Source: Lysobacter lycopersici
Lineage (GTDB): Bacteria; Pseudomonadota; Gammaproteobacteria; Xanthomonadales; Xanthomonadaceae
NCBI RefSeq assembly: GCF_007556775.1
Contig: NZ_CP041742.1
Coordinates: forward strand, 310,001 to 374,000
DNA length: 64,000 bases
Reading direction: 5' to 3'
Positions 28,360 to 36,335 of the stretch are shown here, piece after piece. The position numbers and the translations under genes are program-made. The notes under the pieces are model-generated. The model did no database searches, was not told where the DNA came from, and saw only the letters and a list, made by a program, of their open reading frames with translations. The first letter of the stretch is position 1. The number at the start of each line of letters is the position of its first letter.

Positions 28360-28650
28360 TCAACGCTTCTCGTAGGTCACGAAAAAGCCCTGCAAATCGC
28401 CGTTCTCGATGTAGGGCTGCACGCCGACCACGTGGTAGCCGTGTGCGTAGAAGGCCTTGTGCGCGGCGCTGAGGTCGTTGGCCGCGCCGCTCTTGCGGAA
28501 ACCCCAGGTCGCATCGACCCAGATCGTGACCGCCGGCAACTGTTCGCGCTCGGCTTCGGTGGCGGCCTGCTCGGGTGACTTGCCGAACAAGCCGGCATGC
28601 GCGGGAACGGCGACGGCGAGCAGCAGGGCGAGCAACAAGGTGCGGGTCAT
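28360..28650 (-). CDS. Small secreted protein of unknown function
   Basis: A 96-residue protein with a clear signal peptide (about 1-19, VPAHA). The mature part is about 75 residues, with no cysteine, containing GLFGKSPEQAATEAEREQLP followed by ITIW-like beta segments and ending YIENGDLQGFFVTYEKR. I do not recognise the family. Start is the ATG at 28650, preceded by GGAAGGAACC; a longer frame would overlap pcp. It is last in the run of - strand genes containing pcp and pxp, 19 bases after pcp, so it may be co-transcribed with them. Confidence 0.75.
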   Translation of the reverse strand: MTRTLLLALLLAVAVPAHAGLFGKSPEQAATEAEREQLPAVTIWVDATWGFRKSGAANDLSAAHKAFYAHGYHVVGVQPYIENGDLQGFFVTYEKR

Positions 28651-28669
28651 CGCGGGGTTCCTTCCTGTT

Positions 28670-29308
28670 TCAGTCTTCGGCGCCGGCGGCGATGCGCGCA
28701 TCTTCGTTAGTGGTCGCCGCGACGCGCAAGGCGATGCGCAGGCCTTCGGCGATGTCCTCCAGCGGCATGCCGCCGCGACCGGCGTTCGGAACGTGGATGA
28801 AACCGCCGCGCACGTCGCGCTTGTTCCGCAATGCGTGCATCAGCCCGTAGAACACGTGGTTGCAGACATAGGTGCCGGCGGTCTGCGACACCTGCGCGGG
28901 AATGCCGTGCTTCCGCAGCGCGGCGAGCATCGCCTTGATCGGCAGGGTCGAGAAATACGCGGCGGGTCCGCGCGCAGCGATCTTCGCATCGACCGGTTGC
29001 GCGCCGGCATTGTCGGGAATGCGTGCGTCGTCGATGTTGATCGCGACGCGTTCCAGCGACAATTCCTTGCGCCCGCCGGCGAGTCCGAGGCACACCACGA
29101 GCGACGGTGCGGTTTCGCGGATCGCGGCGCGCAATGCGCGTAGCGAGGCATCGAACTCGGTCGGCAACTGCCGCGCGACGATGCGATGCCCGCCGACGAT
29201 GCGGCCGTCGAGCGCGGACGCGGCGTCCCAGCTCGGGTTCGACTTCGCCCCGTCGAACGGGTCGAAACCGGTGAGCAACAGCGTTGGCCGCACGGTCGCG
29301 CGCTTCAC
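28670..29308 (-). CDS. pcp: Pyroglutamyl-peptidase I
   Basis: Pcp removes an N-terminal pyroglutamate (5-oxoproline) from peptides. The 212-residue cytoplasmic cysteine peptidase (family C15) shows LLTGFDPFDGAKSNPSW at the start, GLAGGRKELSLERVAIN, the catalytic cysteine in TAGTYVCNHVFYGLMH and the catalytic histidine in GGFIHVPN. The GTG start at 29308 overlaps the stop of the DUF979 gene (GTGA). Its product, 5-oxoproline, is the substrate of PxpABC encoded in the same gene run. Confidence 0.94.
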   Translation of the reverse strand: MKRATVRPTLLLTGFDPFDGAKSNPSWDAASALDGRIVGGHRIVARQLPTEFDASLRALRAAIRETAPSLVVCLGLAGGRKELSLERVAINIDDARIPDNAGAQPVDAKIAARGPAAYFSTLPIKAMLAALRKHGIPAQVSQTAGTYVCNHVFYGLMHALRNKRDVRGGFIHVPNAGRGGMPLEDIAEGLRIALRVAATTNEDARIAAGAED

Positions 29309-30270
29309 CGGAACACCAGCAGCGCCATCAGCGCGATGTTGACCGCGAGCAGCGGCACGGCGGTGGCCCATTGCGCGCGAATCACGCCGTTGGGATCGTC
29401 GAGTTCCAGCAGCGCGGCCGGCACGAGGTTGAAGTTCGCGGCCATCGGCGTGAGCAGCGTGCCGCAGTAACCGGTGAGCATGCCGAGCGAACCGAGGATC
29501 GCCGGGTCGGCGCCGTGCCGCTGGATCAGCAAGGGCAAGCCGATGCCGGCGGTCATCACCGGGAACGCGGCGAAAGCGTTGCCCATGATCATGGTGAACA
29601 GCACCATGCCCAGCGCGTAGGCGAGCAGGCATGCGATGCGGCTGTCGGTGGGAATGACCATCGAGACCAGCGAGGCGACCGATTCGCCGACGCCACTCGC
29701 AGCGAACACGCCGCCCAGCGTCGCCAGCACGATCGGCAGCAATGCGGCCCAGCCGAGCGTGTCGAGCAGGCGCCGGTTTTCGACGAAAGCCATCGCGGGC
29801 ATTTCGCGGGTGACGCGCAGCGCGGCGAGCGCGGCGACCACGCAGGCGAGGCCGAGGCCGACCAGGGTCGGGCTGCCTTCGCCGAGGAATTTCGTCGTAC
29901 CGAACGCGAGCTTCGGCCCGAACATCACCACCAGCAACGTGACCAGCGGGATCAGCAGCGCCGGCCACAGCAGCCGATGGCCGAGTCGTTGCGCGGAAGC
30001 GAGGCGCTGTTCGCGCGGCGCTTCGGCGATGTGCATCCGGCGCATGCGCAACGACAGCAGCGCGAGCGCGACCACGCCGACGCCGGCGAGTTGCGCGGGA
30101 AAAGGATTCCCGGCCTTGCGCGCGGCGAGGATCCAGTCGCCGCCGGCGAACAGCAACGCCAGCACCGCCCAGAAACAGGCCTGCGCGAAACGCCGTTCGC
30201 GCGCGTTGCGCCAGGCCGCGGCCGCGAGCAGCAGCGCCAGCAGCCAGTAGAACGGCGCGAGCTCAAGCAT
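29305..30270 (-). CDS. DUF979 membrane protein, permease-like
   Basis: A 321-residue polytopic membrane protein: about eight to ten hydrophobic helices, from FYWLLALLLAAAAW at the N terminus to PLLAVNIALMALLVF at the C terminus. It matches the DUF979 family, which pairs with DUF969. Polar stretches inside the membrane part (AYALGMVLFTMIMGNAFAAFPVMTAGIGLPLL; YCGTLLTPMAANFNLVPAALLEL) look like an ion-transporter superfamily core. It overlaps the DUF969 gene by 8 bases and pcp by 4. Context suggests uptake of 5-oxoproline or pyroglutamyl peptides; this is inference. Confidence 0.85.
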   Translation of the reverse strand: MLELAPFYWLLALLLAAAAWRNARERRFAQACFWAVLALLFAGGDWILAARKAGNPFPAQLAGVGVVALALLSLRMRRMHIAEAPREQRLASAQRLGHRLLWPALLIPLVTLLVVMFGPKLAFGTTKFLGEGSPTLVGLGLACVVAALAALRVTREMPAMAFVENRRLLDTLGWAALLPIVLATLGGVFAASGVGESVASLVSMVIPTDSRIACLLAYALGMVLFTMIMGNAFAAFPVMTAGIGLPLLIQRHGADPAILGSLGMLTGYCGTLLTPMAANFNLVPAALLELDDPNGVIRAQWATAVPLLAVNIALMALLVFR

Positions 30271-30955
30271 CGCTGCGTTCCCGGCGCAGGCGCCGCGCGA
30301 ACAGCATGATGCGCAGCGTGTGGATGGCGAATGCGGCGACCGCGGTGGGCAGCGCCCACAGCGCGATGTGCAGCGGTTCGAGCACGATGCCGTTCTGCGC
30401 GTAGAAGCCCTGGATCAGCAGCACCGCGCCGACGGCGACGAACACGTCCTCGCCGAAGAACAGGCCGACGTTGTCGGTGGCGGCGTCCAGCGCCAGCACG
30501 CGCTGGCGTTGTTCGTGCGTCAGTGGCCCCGTCTCCTTTTCGGCCGCGGCCTCGCTCATCGGTGCGAGCAGGGGACGCACGGTCTGCGCGTGGCCGCCGG
30601 CATTGGTCAGGCCGACCATGCTCAGCAGCTGGCGCAGGCCGAGGTAGCCGATGAGCAGGCGCGCGAAGGTCATGCGCTGCATGTGCAGGATCCACGCGTG
30701 CATGTGCTCGCGCAGGCCGGCGCGTTCGAGCAGGCCGATGGTCGGCAACGTCAGCACGAACAGCATCAGCGCGCGATTCGAAACGAAGGACTCGCCGAGC
30801 AAGGCCAGCAGTTCGCCCAGCGGCTTGCCCGCGAGCAGGCCGCTGGTCAGCCCGGCGCCGACCACGACCGCGATCGGGTTCAGCCGCAGCACGAAGCCGA
30901 CGACCACGACGGCGATGCCGAGCAGTGGCCAATAGTTGATCAACACCTCGTTCAT
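30263..30955 (-). CDS. DUF969 membrane protein, permease-like
   Basis: A 230-residue membrane protein of the DUF969 family. N-terminal helices (YWPLLGIAVVVVGFVL; IAVVVGAGLTSGLLAG) are followed by ALMLFVLTLPTIGLLERAGLREH and a loop with LLSMVGLTNAGGHAQTVRPLLAPM, the family's conserved polar signature. A final helix (PLHIALWALPTAVAAFAIH) precedes a basic C terminus. The ATG at 30955 overlaps the pxpA stop by four bases, and its own end overlaps DUF979, so the two halves are likely made together as one transporter. Confidence 0.85.
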   Translation of the reverse strand: MNEVLINYWPLLGIAVVVVGFVLRLNPIAVVVGAGLTSGLLAGKPLGELLALLGESFVSNRALMLFVLTLPTIGLLERAGLREHMHAWILHMQRMTFARLLIGYLGLRQLLSMVGLTNAGGHAQTVRPLLAPMSEAAAEKETGPLTHEQRQRVLALDAATDNVGLFFGEDVFVAVGAVLLIQGFYAQNGIVLEPLHIALWALPTAVAAFAIHTLRIMLFARRLRRERSDA

Positions 30956-31704
30956 GCGTCGCGTCCCGGTGCGCGGATCGACACGCTTTCGGCTTCGAGC
31001 GCCGCGCGCAGGCCGCGCGCGAACTCCGCGGCATCGCTGCGGTCGCCGTGCAGGCACAGGGTGTCGGCGCGGATCGGCACGCGCGTGCCGTCGCGGGCAA
31101 CCACGACCCCGTCGCGGACGAAACCACGGACCTGTGCGAGCGCATTGTCGAAACTTTCGATCACCGCGCCCGGCGTGCCGCGCGGGGCGAGGCGGCCGTC
31201 GGCGTCGTAGGCACGTTCGGCGAAGGCTTCGTGCGCAACCCGCAAGCCCGCGGCTTCACCAGCCGTAGTGAGTTCCGAATTCGCGAGTCCGTACAACACC
31301 AAGGCCGGATCGGATTCGCGCACCGCTTCGGCGATGGCCGCGGCGACATCGCGGTCGCGCGCGGCGAGGTTGTACAGCGCGCCGTGCGGCTTGACGTGGT
31401 GCAGGCGCGCACCGGCCTCGACGCATGCATTCGCCATGAGCGTGATTTGCCGCGCGACCAGCGCGTGGATCTCGGCGGGTGCAAGCGCGAGCTCGCGCCG
31501 GCCGAAATGTTCGCGGTCCTCGAACGAGGGATGCGCGCCGATCGCGACGCCGTGCGCGAGGCAGAGCGCAACCAATTCGCGCATCGTCGCGGCATCGCCT
31601 GCGTGCGCGCCGCAGGCGATGCTGGCCGAACTGATGTGCGAGACGATGGCTGCGTCCTGGCCGCAGCCTTCGCCGAGGTCGCAGTTGAAATCCAGCGACG
31701 GCAA
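30952..31704 (-). CDS. pxpA: 5-oxoprolinase subunit A (LamB/YcsF family)
   Basis: PxpA is one of three subunits of the ATP-dependent prokaryotic 5-oxoprolinase, which opens 5-oxoproline to glutamate. The 250-residue protein has the family start DFNCDLGEGCGQD, IACGAHAGDAATM, GAHPSFEDREHFGRREL, the central HVKPHGALYN, and near the end TLCLHGD. All are usual YcsF signatures. It overlaps the DUF969 gene and follows the DUF885 gene by 9 bases. pxpA is separated from pxpB and pxpC only by the DUF885 gene. Confidence 0.93.
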   Translation of the reverse strand: MPSLDFNCDLGEGCGQDAAIVSHISSASIACGAHAGDAATMRELVALCLAHGVAIGAHPSFEDREHFGRRELALAPAEIHALVARQITLMANACVEAGARLHHVKPHGALYNLAARDRDVAAAIAEAVRESDPALVLYGLANSELTTAGEAAGLRVAHEAFAERAYDADGRLAPRGTPGAVIESFDNALAQVRGFVRDGVVVARDGTRVPIRADTLCLHGDRSDAAEFARGLRAALEAESVSIRAPGRDA

Positions 31705-31713
31705 CGCGAAGCC

Positions 31714-33549
31714 TCAGCCCCCGCTCGAGGCCGGCGTCGCCATGCTCGAAGGCGCCGGCGGCGTTTCGCTCGCTGCGGGCGCAGGCGCGGTCCACAGCTT
31801 CGCTTCCGGCGCGCCGCCGAGCATCTGCGCGCGCACCAGCGGGATCGGCGGACCGCCGTAGCTGAGGAACTGGTCGTGGAACTGCTTCCACGCCTTGCGC
31901 CCGCCCTTGTCCTTGGTCCAGTCCTCGCGCAGCTGCATGATCATCAGCTTCCCGAGCGTGTAGTTGAGGTAGGCCGGATCGTAGGTGCCGCGCGCGGCCT
32001 GCTGGCGCGCATTGCCCGGATCCTGCAGGCCTTGTTCGCGGAACATCTTTTCCGACTGCGCCATGGTCATGCCGCCGGTGTGCATGCCGATGGCGGAGAG
32101 GAAGCGCACGTCGCGCAGCAACGCCTCGCTCAACTGGCCGATGTGCGTTTCCGGCGTCGCGCCGTCGAGGCCGGCGTCGAACATCATTTCCTCGCAGTAA
32201 TGCGCCCAGCCTTCGGCGAAGGCGTAACCGACGAACAACTGCCCGAACTTCCATCCGGCGCGGTTCGAATGCAGGAATTGCAGGAAGTGGCCCGGCCACA
32301 CTTCATGCGCGGAAGTGAACAGCAGCACCGACTTGCCGGGCACGTAGGCGTCCTGCTCGGCCTTGGGCCAGGTCGGGTCGGGCGGGGCGATGTAATAGAC
32401 CGACGGCAGGTTCTTCTCGTACGGGCCGGGAATCTCGATATAGGCGAAGTTCCAGCGGTTGAACGGCGGTGCTTCTTCCACCTTTGCCTGCTCGGGGCCG
32501 GGAATGGTGACGAGGTCCTTGTCGACGATGAACTGGCGCAGGCCTGCGAGTTGCGCACGCGCGCCTTCCACCGCGCCGCCCTGCGGCTTGTCGGCGGCTT
32601 CCTTCTCCACGCACTGTTGCAGCGTCTTGCCGGGTGCGAACTGGCCGCAGGCCGCCTTCATCGCGGCGAGGTTGCGCGCAAGGTCGGCTTCGCCCGCGGC
32701 CTTCAACTGGTCGAGCGGGATGTCCACGCGTTCGGTCGCGTGCAGCATCTTCGCGAACTTCTCCGCGCCCAGCGCGAAGTCCTGCGTCGCCTGCGGCTTC
32801 TGCGCCTTCAGCCAGTCGGCCATGTCCTGCGTGGCCTTGATCGCGGCCGCGTTGCTCGCCTTCAGCCGTGCCTGCAGCGCGTCGTCCTTCACTTCGGCGA
32901 AGATCTTCGGCACGTCGCTTTCGAAGAAGCTGGCGTAACCGCCGAAGGAATTGACGCCGAGGTCGATGTAGGACGCCGGCAGCGGCAGCTTGAAATTGGC
33001 CTTGATCTGTTCGACCGCCTTGGGCAGCGCCTCCTGGTAGCGGATGAACGCGTCCATGCGCGTCGCGAGCGGCGCGTACGGGCGGGTGAGGTACATGCTC
33101 GGCGACAGGTCGCCGGTGTAGAACGCCGGGTTCTTCCAGGCGAAGCCGGAATCCTCGAGCCAGAAGAGATTCCCGTCGATCACCGCCAGCGCGTAGTCGC
33201 GGCGGAAGCGGCCCTGCTCGTCGAGCTTGTCGTCGCCGAACTTCGCGAAGGCGTCGCGCTGCGCGTGCAGCCAGTCGGTGGTGGCCTTCAGGCCCTCGGG
33301 GCTGTAATCCGGCAGCTTGCCGTCGTATTCGTGCTTGCCGGCGCTGGCGGCGAACACCGGGTTGTGCTGGAAGTAGCCATCGATGAAGGCGTCCACGGCC
33401 TTGTCGAGCGCGGCGTCGTCGTTCGCGGCGGCAGTCGCGGCCGGCGCTTCGCCCGAAGCGGGTGCGGTGGCGTTCTGCTTGCAGCCGGCGAGCGCGGCGG
33501 CGACGCAGGCGGTGAGGGCGAGGACACGGACGGTGTGCTTCTGGCGCAT
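31714..33549 (-). CDS. DUF885 metallopeptidase-like lipoprotein
   Basis: A 611-residue exported protein with a lipobox (ALAGC, Cys 23) and the DUF885 domain (about 45-580). The zinc-binding pattern HEVWPGH is at 415-421 and the downstream EGWAHYCE at 446-453 could give the third ligand, the arrangement expected for a gluzincin-type peptidase. The residues before the domain are Ala/Pro/Thr rich. Cell location should be periplasmic, anchored to a membrane. It sits between pxpC and pxpA, so its peptide products might feed the pyroglutamate pathway. Peptidase activity in this family is not something the sequence alone proves. Confidence 0.85.
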   Translation of the reverse strand: MRQKHTVRVLALTACVAAALAGCKQNATAPASGEAPAATAAANDDAALDKAVDAFIDGYFQHNPVFAASAGKHEYDGKLPDYSPEGLKATTDWLHAQRDAFAKFGDDKLDEQGRFRRDYALAVIDGNLFWLEDSGFAWKNPAFYTGDLSPSMYLTRPYAPLATRMDAFIRYQEALPKAVEQIKANFKLPLPASYIDLGVNSFGGYASFFESDVPKIFAEVKDDALQARLKASNAAAIKATQDMADWLKAQKPQATQDFALGAEKFAKMLHATERVDIPLDQLKAAGEADLARNLAAMKAACGQFAPGKTLQQCVEKEAADKPQGGAVEGARAQLAGLRQFIVDKDLVTIPGPEQAKVEEAPPFNRWNFAYIEIPGPYEKNLPSVYYIAPPDPTWPKAEQDAYVPGKSVLLFTSAHEVWPGHFLQFLHSNRAGWKFGQLFVGYAFAEGWAHYCEEMMFDAGLDGATPETHIGQLSEALLRDVRFLSAIGMHTGGMTMAQSEKMFREQGLQDPGNARQQAARGTYDPAYLNYTLGKLMIMQLREDWTKDKGGRKAWKQFHDQFLSYGGPPIPLVRAQMLGGAPEAKLWTAPAPAASETPPAPSSMATPASSGG

Positions 33550-33582
33550 GGCGACGGCTCTCCGTGGGGGAAAGCGTCGAGA

Positions 33583-34557
33583 CTAGGCGCTCGCAGACGG
33601 GGGCGCAACGCCGATTCGTCCCGCGACGGCCAGCGCGATCCGCGCCAGCGTGTGCGCACGTTCGCGGCTCGCCGCCAGCGCCTCGGCGGGCGTGCATGGC
33701 GCGAAGCGGATCGCGTCGCCGGCGCGCAACTGGGCGAGGCGGCCGCGGTCGGCGCGGATCGCGTGGCCGATGCGTGGATAACCGCCGTGGGTCTGCGCGT
33801 CGGCCAGCAGCACGATGGGTTGCCCGCCCGGCGGCAATTGCAGCGTGCCGGGAACGATGGGCTCGGAAACGTATTCGCGCGCATCGCGCAGCGCGAGCGG
33901 CGTTCCGGTCAATCGCAAACCCTGGCGGTCGCTGGCCGGCGCGATGGTCCATGCATTCGCGAACAGGCCATCAGCGGGATCGGTCGCGTCGCTGCCGGGC
34001 AGCACGCGGATCGACGACGACGGATCCGGGTCCAGCGCCAGCGGATCGATCCACCACGGCGCGATGCGCACGCGTTCGACGGTTTCGGCGAATGGTTCCA
34101 CGTGCAGGCGGTCGCCAGCGCGCAGCGCGCGCCCTTCGACGCCGCCGAAACCGCCGCGCAGATCGGTACTCGCGCTGCCGAGGATGTCGGCAACGCGGAT
34201 GCCACCCGAAACCGCGAGCCACGCGCGCGCACCTTGGCGGCAACCGCCGATGCGCAGCACGCTGCCTCCGGGCAGGTCGGCGCGACGCCAGCCCGGAAAC
34301 GTTTCGCCGTCGATGTCGGCATCGAAGTTCGCGCCGCACAACGCGATGCGGGTCGCGCGTTCGAAGCGCAGGGTCGGGCCGGCGAGGGCGATTTCCAGCG
34401 TCGCCGCGGAAACCGCATTGCCGACCAGCAGGTTGGCGATGGCCTGCGCGTCCGGATCGAGCGCGCCGCCGAAACCGACCCCGAGATGCCGGAAACCTTC
34501 GCGCCCACGGCCCTGCACCGTGGTGAGCAGGCCCGGTGCGAGCACTTCGATGCTCAC
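33583..34557 (-). CDS. pxpC: 5-oxoprolinase subunit C (biotin-dependent carboxyltransferase family)
   Basis: A 324-residue protein of the KipA/AHS2 type. VLAPGLLTTVQGRGREGFRHLGVGFGGALD at the N terminus is the family signature, ANLLVGN follows, and GPTLRFE, LCGANFDADIDG and the C-terminal HGGYPRIGHAIRADRGRLAQL are also typical. It overlaps pxpB by four bases. With PxpA and PxpB it forms the ATP-dependent 5-oxoprolinase. Older annotation of such genes as urea or allophanate hydrolase is not supported by this context. Confidence 0.93.
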   Translation of the reverse strand: MSIEVLAPGLLTTVQGRGREGFRHLGVGFGGALDPDAQAIANLLVGNAVSAATLEIALAGPTLRFERATRIALCGANFDADIDGETFPGWRRADLPGGSVLRIGGCRQGARAWLAVSGGIRVADILGSASTDLRGGFGGVEGRALRAGDRLHVEPFAETVERVRIAPWWIDPLALDPDPSSSIRVLPGSDATDPADGLFANAWTIAPASDRQGLRLTGTPLALRDAREYVSEPIVPGTLQLPPGGQPIVLLADAQTHGGYPRIGHAIRADRGRLAQLRAGDAIRFAPCTPAEALAASRERAHTLARIALAVAGRIGVAPPSASA

Positions 34558-35225
34558 GGCAGTTTCCCGGTCGGAACGAAGCGCAGGCGGTCGCCGGGCG
34601 CGAGCAGCGATGGCGGATCGCGCGCCGGATCGAACAGCACGACCTCGGTGCGGCCGATGATGCGCCAGCCGCCAGGGCCGGGGCGCGGATAGATCCCGGC
34701 CTGTTCGCCACCGATGCCGACGCTGCCGGCTTCGACCCGCGTGCGCGGCGTTGCCAGGCGCGGCATCGACAGCGCCGGGTCGAGGCCGAGCAGGTAGGGG
34801 AACCCGGGCGCGAAGCCGAGCATCGCGACGCGGTATTCACCGTCCGCGTGGAGTTCGATCACTTGCCGGGGCGACAATCCCGCGTGTTCGGCCACCGCAT
34901 CGAGGTCGGGGCCGTGTTCGCCGCCGTAGCGCACCGGGACTTCGTGCAACGCGCCTTGCGACGATGCCGGATCGCCATCGTCCGGCGGCAATGCGTGCAA
35001 CCATGCTTCCGCATCCGCCAGCGGATCGTCGCCGTCGCATGCGGATGCGTCGACGAACAGCGCGAGGCTGGCGTAGGCAGGGACGAGGTCGCGCAGCCAC
35101 GGCGGCCGCGCCGCGTCGATGCGCGCGGCCAGCGCGTGCACGCGTGCGTTGGTATCGGCGTCGATGCCGTCGCCGAGGCGAAGCAGCAGGGCATCTTCGC
35201 CCAGCCGCATCGCGCACCAGCGCAT
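34554..35225 (-). CDS. pxpB: 5-oxoprolinase subunit B (KipI/AHS1 family)
   Basis: A 223-residue protein with the KipI/allophanate-hydrolase subunit 1 signature: LLRLGDGIDADTNARVHAL near the N terminus, EVPVRYGGEHGPDLDAVA, and FAPGFPYLLGLDPAL followed by VGIGGEQAGIYPRPGPGGW. Start ATG 35225 is used; a GTG six bases upstream (35231), overlapping the stop of the HIT gene, is equally possible given how often this genome uses GTGA overlaps. Partner of PxpA and PxpC. Confidence 0.93.
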   Translation of the reverse strand: MRWCAMRLGEDALLLRLGDGIDADTNARVHALAARIDAARPPWLRDLVPAYASLALFVDASACDGDDPLADAEAWLHALPPDDGDPASSQGALHEVPVRYGGEHGPDLDAVAEHAGLSPRQVIELHADGEYRVAMLGFAPGFPYLLGLDPALSMPRLATPRTRVEAGSVGIGGEQAGIYPRPGPGGWRIIGRTEVVLFDPARDPPSLLAPGDRLRFVPTGKLP

Positions 35226-35227
35226 GT

Positions 35228-35656
35228 TCACTTGGGCAGCCGGTCCCGCAACAGTCGCACGCGTTCGACCAGCGTTTCCGGCGGATACGGCCGCGCGGCC
35301 ACGCGTCCCCATACCGGCGCGGGCCAGGCGGGGTCGTTTTCCTCGCGCGCGATCACGTGCACGTGCAGTTGCGGCACGATGTTGCCGAGCGCGGCGACGT
35401 TGAGCTTGTGCGGGCGGAACGCATCGCGCAACAGGCACGCGGCGAGGTCGATCTCGTCGGTGAGCTGGTGGCGTTGCGCGGCGTCGAGGTCGACCAGTTC
35501 GCGCGCCTCGGCCACGCGCGGCACCAGTACCAGCCACGGATAGTTCGCGTCGTCCATCAGCCGCAGTTCGCACAGGCCCAGCGTTCCCAGCGGATGCGTC
35601 TCCGCGGCCAGTTGCGGGTGCAGTTCGTAGCGGGCGGGCGGCGCGTGGCGGCTCAT
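35228..35656 (-). CDS. HIT-family nucleotide-binding protein
   Basis: A 142-residue HIT-domain protein; the histidine triad is seen in PQLHVHVIARE near 108-118, with DANYPWLVLVPR in the first half and a C-terminal YPPETLVERV. HIT proteins hydrolyse or transfer nucleotides from phosphoanhydride or phosphoramidate compounds; the class without a named substrate fits best here. It is close to the dienelactone hydrolase gene (10 bases) and touches pxpB, so it may ride on the same transcript without belonging to the pathway. Confidence 0.88.
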   Translation of the reverse strand: MSRHAPPARYELHPQLAAETHPLGTLGLCELRLMDDANYPWLVLVPRVAEARELVDLDAAQRHQLTDEIDLAACLLRDAFRPHKLNVAALGNIVPQLHVHVIAREENDPAWPAPVWGRVAARPYPPETLVERVRLLRDRLPK

Positions 35657-35666
35657 GGCGGAATCC

Positions 35667-36335
35667 TCATCCGAGCGCGGCGGCGAAGAAGTCCAGCGTG
35701 CGGCGCAGCGCCAGCGCCGCGCTGTCGGCGTGGTAGTGCGAGGGATCGATGTCGCGGTTGAACGCATGGCCCGCGCCCGGATACACGTGCACCGGCGCCT
35801 GCGGATACGCCAGGCGGATTTTCGCGATCGATTCCGGGGGGATGCCGGCATCGTCGGCGCCGAAGTGGAACAGCATCGGCGCGCGCAGCGGTTCGCCGAG
35901 GAAATCCACCACCCGCCCGCCGTAATAGGCGACCGCCGGCAGGCCGAAACGGGTGTTGGCGAGGAAGGCGAGGGTGCCGCCCCAGCAGTATCCGACCACG
36001 CCGACCTTGTGGCCTTCGTCCTGCAACAGCTTCGCGGCCGCACCGACGATGGCAATGGCGCGATCCGTGCCGACTTCCGCGCGCAGTTCGATGCCGCGCC
36101 GCATGCCGGCGTCGTCGTAGCCGAGCTCGATGTTGCGTTCGGCCGGGTCGAACAGCGCCGGCGCGACCGCGATGTAGCCCTTGGCGGCGAAGCGGTCGGC
36201 GACGCTGCGCATGTGCGCGTTCACCCCGAAGATCTCCTGCACCACGACCAGCGCGCCCAGCGGTGCGCCTTCGGGGTCGGCGCGCCAGGCATCGGTCTTG
36301 CCTGCGGGCGTATCGATGATGATGTCGCGGCCCAT
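35667..36335 (-). CDS. Dienelactone hydrolase family protein
   Basis: A 222-residue alpha/beta hydrolase. The nucleophile is cysteine in VGYCWGGTLAF, as in dienelactone hydrolases; the acid is in the FGADDAGIP block and the histidine in YPGAGHAFNRD. The N terminus (DIIIDTPAGKTDAWRADPEGAPLGALVVVQEIFGVNAHM) is the normal family opening. No aromatic-degradation genes are near, so a general ester or lactone hydrolase is more likely than chlorocatechol breakdown. First gene of the - strand run that continues into pxp; it diverges from rimO. Confidence 0.9.
   Translation of the reverse strand: MGRDIIIDTPAGKTDAWRADPEGAPLGALVVVQEIFGVNAHMRSVADRFAAKGYIAVAPALFDPAERNIELGYDDAGMRRGIELRAEVGTDRAIAIVGAAAKLLQDEGHKVGVVGYCWGGTLAFLANTRFGLPAVAYYGGRVVDFLGEPLRAPMLFHFGADDAGIPPESIAKIRLAYPQAPVHVYPGAGHAFNRDIDPSHYHADSAALALRRTLDFFAAALG

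Follow-up and report, generated by a model that had tools for sequence, protein, structure and literature searches.

An operon-bound subfamily of DUF885 lipoproteins at a predicted 5-oxoproline scavenging locus of Lysobacter lycopersici

Glutamate and glutamine spontaneously give rise to the cyclic compound 5-oxoproline (5-OP; pyroglutamate), whose uptake and reuse may for this reason be widespread, and the PxpABC family is an established ATP-dependent 5-oxoprolinase. Operons encoding the three Pxp subunits have been described (Niehaus 2017), the occurrence of DUF969 and DUF979 genes in such operons has been noted in print, and the two families have been proposed, following that 2017 paper, to form a 5-OP transporter (PMC12795558, PMC11467057). 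DUF979 has been assigned to the ion transporter (IT) superfamily as a single repeat, and a confident prediction of the DUF969-DUF979 complex, made in 2024 with Clostridioides proteins, gave two interacting half-transporters (PMC11467057). In Campylobacter jejuni, a cj0552-4 (DUF969-DUF979-DUF2891) mutant does not use 5-OP as a nitrogen source, a result of 2026 that its authors call preliminary (PMC12795558), and in Corynebacterium glutamicum the pxpTABC genes join dedicated 5-OP uptake, through the APC/NRAMP-type carrier PxpT, to PxpABC, together with a PxpR repressor (PMC13274462). Here we analyse a related locus of Lysobacter lycopersici, at positions 28360–36335 of a 64,000-nucleotide stretch (NZ_CP041742.1, 310,001–374,000; hereafter the window). 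Its core system is ordinary and known, and an earlier reading of the window made by a model from the letters and their open reading frames (the sequence-only reading) was largely right about it; what is new is an apparently dedicated DUF885 accessory, a corrected boundary of the gene run, an argument for 5-OP as the substrate, a lead on DUF2891, and the recognition of a small secreted protein as a fixed flank.

Compared with the PxpABC operons, the window has the same three subunits, all as intact open frames; its additions are pcp and the gene for a DUF885 lipoprotein, and its site is fixed in the family. It shares both transporter families with cj0552-4, whose third gene is DUF2891 where the window's is pcp, and for which no pxp gene is named in the passages of that paper that we used. 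Dedicated 5-OP uptake together with PxpABC, as in C. glutamicum, is what we propose for the window, with DUF969/DUF979 instead of an APC/NRAMP-type carrier. All genes lie on the minus strand. pxpB (34554..35225; Pfam CT_C_D) is over the cut-off of NCBIfam TIGR00370, and pxpC (33583..34557; CT_A_B), which overlaps pxpB by 4 bases, is over that of the domain model TIGR00724, with an equivalog score of 266.9 bits vs a cut-off of 500. pxpA (30952..31704; LamB_YcsF), which has a TTG start, is over the cut-off of NF003814; in all it is over those of two subfamily models and under those of three equivalogs. Between pxpC and pxpA lies the DUF885 gene (31714..33549; Pfam DUF885, E 1.3e-88), predicted to encode a zinc metallopeptidase, and downstream of pxpA come the predicted transporter subunits DUF969 (30263..30955; E 3.9e-80) and DUF979 (29305..30270; E 4.8e-101), which overlap by 8 bases as the sequence-only reading had said. 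The pyroglutamyl-peptidase I gene pcp (28670..29308; Peptidase_C15) is over the cut-offs of TIGR00504 and NF009676. The Pfam matches of these seven genes have E values from 5e-68 to 5e-101, and the NCBIfam scan gave no match for the window's DUF885, DUF969 or DUF979. The order pxpB-pxpC-pxpA-DUF969-DUF979-pcp also occurs in records bearing titles such as Lysobacter, Pantoea, Cupriavidus, Acidobacteria and Verrucomicrobia, and with this recurrence it is not a matter of chance.

The DUF885 subfamily is tied to this operon. Orthologues of the window's protein (71–82% identity) occur in 9 other genomes among the 99 of the window's family that we surveyed, making 10/99 with the window's own, and the next DUF885 proteins among the matches listed (E up to 1e-50) are 29–32% identical. 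All ten orthologues lie inside the cassette, before pxpA in nine genomes and after pcp in one (L131); they come from 6 of the 54 genera, and none is present in the 59 family genomes that lack DUF979. Because every family orthologue sits inside the operon, the lipoprotein looks dedicated to it. Two further orthologues, in the named records L013 and L032, are placed likewise, and the zinc motif HEV(W/F/Y)PGH is kept in all 12 orthologues aligned. The window's protein has a lipobox Cys23, HEVWPGH at 415 and EGWAHY at 446; the Peptidase_MA clan is described by an HExxH motif (PMC12572635), and the spacing here is HExxPGH. A loose lipobox pattern is found in 11/12 orthologues; in L114 it falls at an earlier Cys, the expected position reading AAGC, and L132 has no lipobox cysteine. 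The genome to which the window belongs encodes four more DUF885 proteins, which are 21–27% identical to the window's and are without the motifs common to the orthologues. In G061 (locus L105) DUF885 is kept and Pcp was not found in the genome, which argues that DUF885 does not depend on Pcp there. In the parts of the literature that our search covered we recognised no paper linking DUF885 to the pxp-DUF969-DUF979 operon. The periplasmic peptidase step proposed in the sequence-only reading thus gains support from a dedicated subfamily, while the reaction of that step is a prediction from sequence, and we infer pyroglutamyl peptides as its substrate class. As a side observation, two congeneric genomes have a long open frame ahead of DUF885, in or beside the operon (L105, 2279–4825; L114, 1046–4162), and the N-terminal stretches of the two frames are similar.

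To which substrate the DUF969/DUF979 carrier is matched is best judged from the genes that accompany it. We examined the best 80 of at least 598 loci by likeness to the window's DUF979, a choice that under-samples distant relatives, and counted pcp and DUF2891 at the locus itself. DUF969 adjoins DUF979 in 79/80 loci; at least one pxp gene is present in 66/80 and all three in 61/80; pcp is present in 67/80, and in 65/80 it is on the DUF979 strand and no more than 300 bases away; DUF885 is present in 2/80. None of the 80 loci is without all three of pcp, pxp and DUF2891. Fourteen loci have no pxp gene. Three of these, on contigs 4.0 to 7.4 kb long, were set aside; among the 11 genomes that remain, seven carry pxpA elsewhere and four a fused oxoprolinase-type gene (frames of 1205–1245 aa). 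Fused oxoprolinases were counted by an open frame of at least 1100 aa, a cut-off of our own choosing. In the family survey DUF979 was found in 40 genomes, pxpA in 45 and pcp in 35, with pxpA in 39/40 genomes that have DUF979 vs 6/59 that do not, and pcp in 34/40 (G060 having a fragment only) vs 1/59 (G093). In G004, the sole DUF979 genome of the family that lacks pxpA, a fused Hydant_A_N, Hydantoinase_A and Hydantoinase_B enzyme lies directly before DUF969, so that a 5-oxoprolinase accompanies DUF979 in 40/40 genomes (39 PxpA, one OPLAH-type). The label OPLAH-type is based on architecture and context. The same fused enzyme lies directly before DUF969 in G214 and G242, two genomes of a 150-genome phylum sample that have no PxpA; for that of G214 the nearest relative of solved structure is 7hk5, a fused N-methylhydantoinase, followed by 6yra, filed as a 5-oxoprolinase. 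Two unrelated oxoprolinases beside one carrier are independent support for its substrate. Since an oxoprolinase is present in every tested DUF979 genome but one (G109), and Pcp is optional, gene content favours 5-OP itself over pyroglutamyl peptides. The importer suggested in the sequence-only reading is thus retained as a predicted 5-OP importer working with a 5-oxoprolinase, and pyroglutamyl peptides, which that reading had offered as another cargo, are the less favoured of the two, with G109 as the counter-case. We also considered whether pcp is always tied to DUF979 and rejected this, as it holds for 34/35 pcp genomes of the family and for 3/14 in the phylum sample.

Structure models of the two subunits, each chain folded separately, are consistent with a carrier. 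For DUF979 (pLDDT 87.2), 18 of the first 19 structure matches are IT or TRAP carriers by title, among them TRAP, NaS1, VcINDY, Pho90 and ArsB, at modest Z scores of 6.7–9.2 that fall under the caution level of 13 for helical models. The modelled chain thus appears to share the fold of the IT superfamily (VcINDY, NaS1, TRAP SiaQM, ArsB), albeit at modest Z, as already published for DUF979 (PMC11467057). The DUF969 model (pLDDT 77.4) matches NaDC1 (Z 9.3), YdaH (9.0), MtrF and VcINDY, interspersed with unrelated helical bundles. Against VcINDY (4f35), DUF979 covers residues 18–243 and DUF969 residues 259–462, as two halves would; other matches give other halves. IT carriers are one two-repeat chain, whereas DUF969 and DUF979 are two separate single-repeat chains. 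A likeness between the two families has been claimed from models (PMC11467057), and our hhalign comparison of their profiles gave a probability of 0.48%. Invariant residues (48 sequences of each family) cluster in GNxFAAF and CGTLxTPMAANFN of DUF979 and in VRPL and FFGED of DUF969, motifs that we regard as candidate parts of the substrate site. The idea of a DUF969/DUF979 transporter is sound but already in print (PMC12795558, PMC11467057), and the description of the pair as uncharacterised in the sequence-only reading has to be given up. A table of halotolerance-linked clusters lists an oxoprolinase-family protein (113), DUF969 (115), DUF979 (116) and DUF2891 (117), and, apart from these, a DUF885 protein (12); the passages on that table do not take up a transporter role (PMC10040529), and the parts of PMC9223772, PMC10653852 and PMC10434189 that we used hold nothing bearing on it.

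The place of pcp beside DUF979 is sometimes taken by another gene. The window's Pcp carries LERVAIN at 85, VCNH at 148 and FIHVP at 170, whose Glu, Cys and His we take to be the catalytic triad of peptidase C15. DUF2891 is present in 7/80 loci, each time adjoining DUF979, and no locus has both pcp and DUF2891 (chance 5.4e-7 on the assumption of independent loci, which does not fully hold). Whole-genome searches of the four survey genomes with DUF2891 beside DUF979 (G030, rated 87% complete, G209, G214 and G242) found no Pcp. DUF2891 may be a non-homologous stand-in for Pcp; in the parts of the literature searched, we recognised no paper linking the two. PDB entry 8ieu is a DUF2891 protein, and a literature search on 8ieu and 8iev gave two unrelated papers. 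The loci with DUF2891 just after DUF979, in place of pcp, are L036, L040, L062, L073, L076, L083, L084, L103, L159, L160 and L161. In L119 (G060) a 36-residue pcp match is left after DUF979, as if pcp were being lost from the cassette, and in L120 (G022) and L118 (G066), where DUF969/DUF979 lie outside their usual slot, pcp is 1.7 Mb and 0.34 Mb from DUF979.

We consider it likely that the locus is a 5-OP scavenging operon in which DUF969 and DUF979 import 5-OP and DUF885 is an accessory. The two proteins would form one membrane carrier of two half-subunits, as has been modelled in print, and this carrier would bring in 5-OP, which one published mutant supports; PxpABC would then open the ring to give glutamate at the expense of ATP, and cytoplasmic Pcp, going by its family function, would release 5-OP from pyroglutamyl peptides taken up in other ways. 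DUF885, which by its sequence would be exported and lipid-anchored, would serve as the accessory zinc peptidase of the operon, and we tentatively suggest, with rather less confidence than we have in the scavenging itself, that it acts outside the inner membrane on peptides blocked by an N-terminal pyroglutamyl residue, cleaving or trimming them and so feeding the carrier. A number of observations weigh against this account. The Campylobacter mutant, besides being preliminary, is also without DUF2891 (PMC12795558). From the window's Pcp about 8 residues are missing directly after the catalytic-His motif, residues that are retained by most of the 29 other family Pcp proteins in the alignment. 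In the phylum sample, where 65/150 genomes have pxpA or the fused enzyme, the link to an oxoprolinase (5/6 DUF979 genomes vs 60/144) is not significant alone (Fisher 0.085, a test whose values overstate the association because genomes share ancestry), and only 3/14 pcp genomes have DUF979. G093 (75% complete) has pxpA and pcp, and DUF979 was not found in it. Finally, DUF969-DUF979-pcp is present in G109, in which no PxpA and no Hydantoinase_B enzyme was found, and the DUF885 orthologue is missing from 30/40 DUF979 genomes of the family. A shortening of Pcp after the His motif is also seen in L098 and, slightly, in L102.

Some of these points bear on other explanations. If the carrier imported pyroglutamyl di- or tripeptides, from which Pcp then freed 5-OP for PxpABC, one would understand why pcp so often lies close to DUF979 on the same strand, why all five genomes with a pxp-only slot are without both DUF979 and pcp, and why G109 keeps the trio with no oxoprolinase. 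Yet DUF979 is kept without pcp in 6/40 family genomes and in G209, G214 and G242, the oxoprolinase is the steadier partner, and the mutant phenotype concerns free 5-OP (PMC12795558), so we think peptide import improbable. Export of 5-OP that the cell cannot use, whether released by Pcp or formed spontaneously, would likewise suit the transporter and pcp of G109, but all other tested DUF979 genomes have an oxoprolinase-type gene and the Campylobacter mutant lost growth on 5-OP (PMC12795558), and we give export very little credence. The gene set of G109 (L158, 7284–9545), a genome of 2.0 Mb that is from the same class as the window and is rated 100% complete, fits either of these better than it fits 5-OP import, and makes it a natural test case. 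DUF885 might also be a hitch-hiking lipoprotein with no relation to 5-OP. Its absence from most DUF979 genomes would agree with this, as would its relatives in the PDB, which are unnamed lipoproteins (3u24, 'putative Lipoprotein', E 8e-39) or uncharacterized, and the literature search on DUF885, which gave, among the papers listed, none with a function in the title; the confinement of all ten orthologues to the cassette, at two positions and in six genera, and to genomes with DUF979 speaks against it, and we hold it to be doubtful, if less so than peptide import.

Returning to 5-OP scavenging, we can imagine a mix-and-match salvage module in which the 5-OP carrier is constant, the unrelated PxpABC and OPLAH-type enzymes on the one hand and, after DUF979, the unrelated Pcp and DUF2891 on the other are interchangeable, and the DUF885 lipoprotein of the window's family is a dedicated surface peptidase, releasing pyroglutamate before it reaches the inner membrane. 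This is a speculative picture that we would not expect to hold in full, but if it did, DUF2891 would be a new enzyme, either pyroglutamyl-releasing or 5-OP-handling, and the DUF885 protein a new extracytoplasmic pyroglutamyl peptidase. The DUF969/DUF979 carrier is the least documented part of 5-OP uptake and reuse, and the operon-bound DUF885 subfamily and the mutual exclusion of pcp and DUF2891 make it possible to test two families of unknown function as enzymes acting on a defined class of substrates.

The sequence-only reading had named, as an outcome that would speak against it, DUF969/DUF979 lying mainly away from pcp and pxp genes. This is not so in the best 80 loci (66 with pxp, 67 with pcp), and the association is weaker in the phylum sample, where 6/150 genomes have DUF979, three of them with pcp, two with pxpA and three with the fused OPLAH-type enzyme, which in G209 is not beside DUF979.

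The run of genes at the locus is longer than was thought. That reading had named eight minus-strand genes between 28360 and 35225; all eight are open frames in the order given, and Pfam families fit seven, but the run starts two genes further upstream, with a dienelactone-hydrolase-family gene (DLH; 35667..36335, minus strand; Pfam DLH, E 4.5e-37) and a HIT-domain gene (35228..35656, minus strand; Pfam HIT, E 4e-14), and holds ten genes, DLH-HIT-pxpB-pxpC-DUF885-pxpA-DUF969-DUF979-pcp-small. The successive spacings are 10, 2, −4, 33, 9, −4, −8, −4 and 19 bases, in keeping with the earlier remark that gaps are mostly under 40, and the run is limited by a divergent rimO on one side and a convergent dcd on the other. 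A promoter scan detected none in the locus, and its three terminator-like sites are below the number given by shuffles. The last gene (28360..28650, minus strand) encodes a small secreted protein with no Pfam or NCBIfam match.

We examined the slot in family genomes that have DUF979, the small protein or pxpA. The usual order is rimO, divergent, then DLH-HIT-[pxpB-pxpC-(DUF885)-pxpA-DUF969-DUF979-pcp]-small, with dcd-mrp convergent; in some genomes the cassette is elsewhere or partial. The small protein is found in 28/99 family genomes, 13 of which have no DUF979, and in 12 of these (L138–L149) DLH, which adjoins HIT in empty slots too, is followed by HIT, small and dcd with nothing of the cassette between. 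The thirteenth, G007, is on a short contig starting in pxpC (L150) and has pxpA beside small. We had considered the small protein as a member of the pathway, as the sequence-only reading implied, and rejected this, since 12/28 are in cassette-free slots and there is no association with DUF979 (Fisher 0.11); it is a fixed flank of the slot, probably outside the pathway. The pxp-DUF969-DUF979-pcp block is, in the window's family, a cassette coming and going between HIT and small. On a tree of the flank proteins (44 rows, a quick method, 15/41 branches weak) the cassette state needs 12 changes, and for the 'full' state at least 4 are forced by well-supported branches; the 'full' state alone clusters no more than shuffles do (119/500 as low), and the tree does not separate gain from loss. 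Five slots hold pxp genes only (G007/L150 and L152–L155), with no DUF969, DUF979 or pcp; PxpABC alone might serve the repair of internal 5-OP, to which transporter and Pcp would add a scavenging extension. Among the cassette-free slots, L144 has another 3.2 kb stretch between HIT and small, and L146 one of 0.8 kb.

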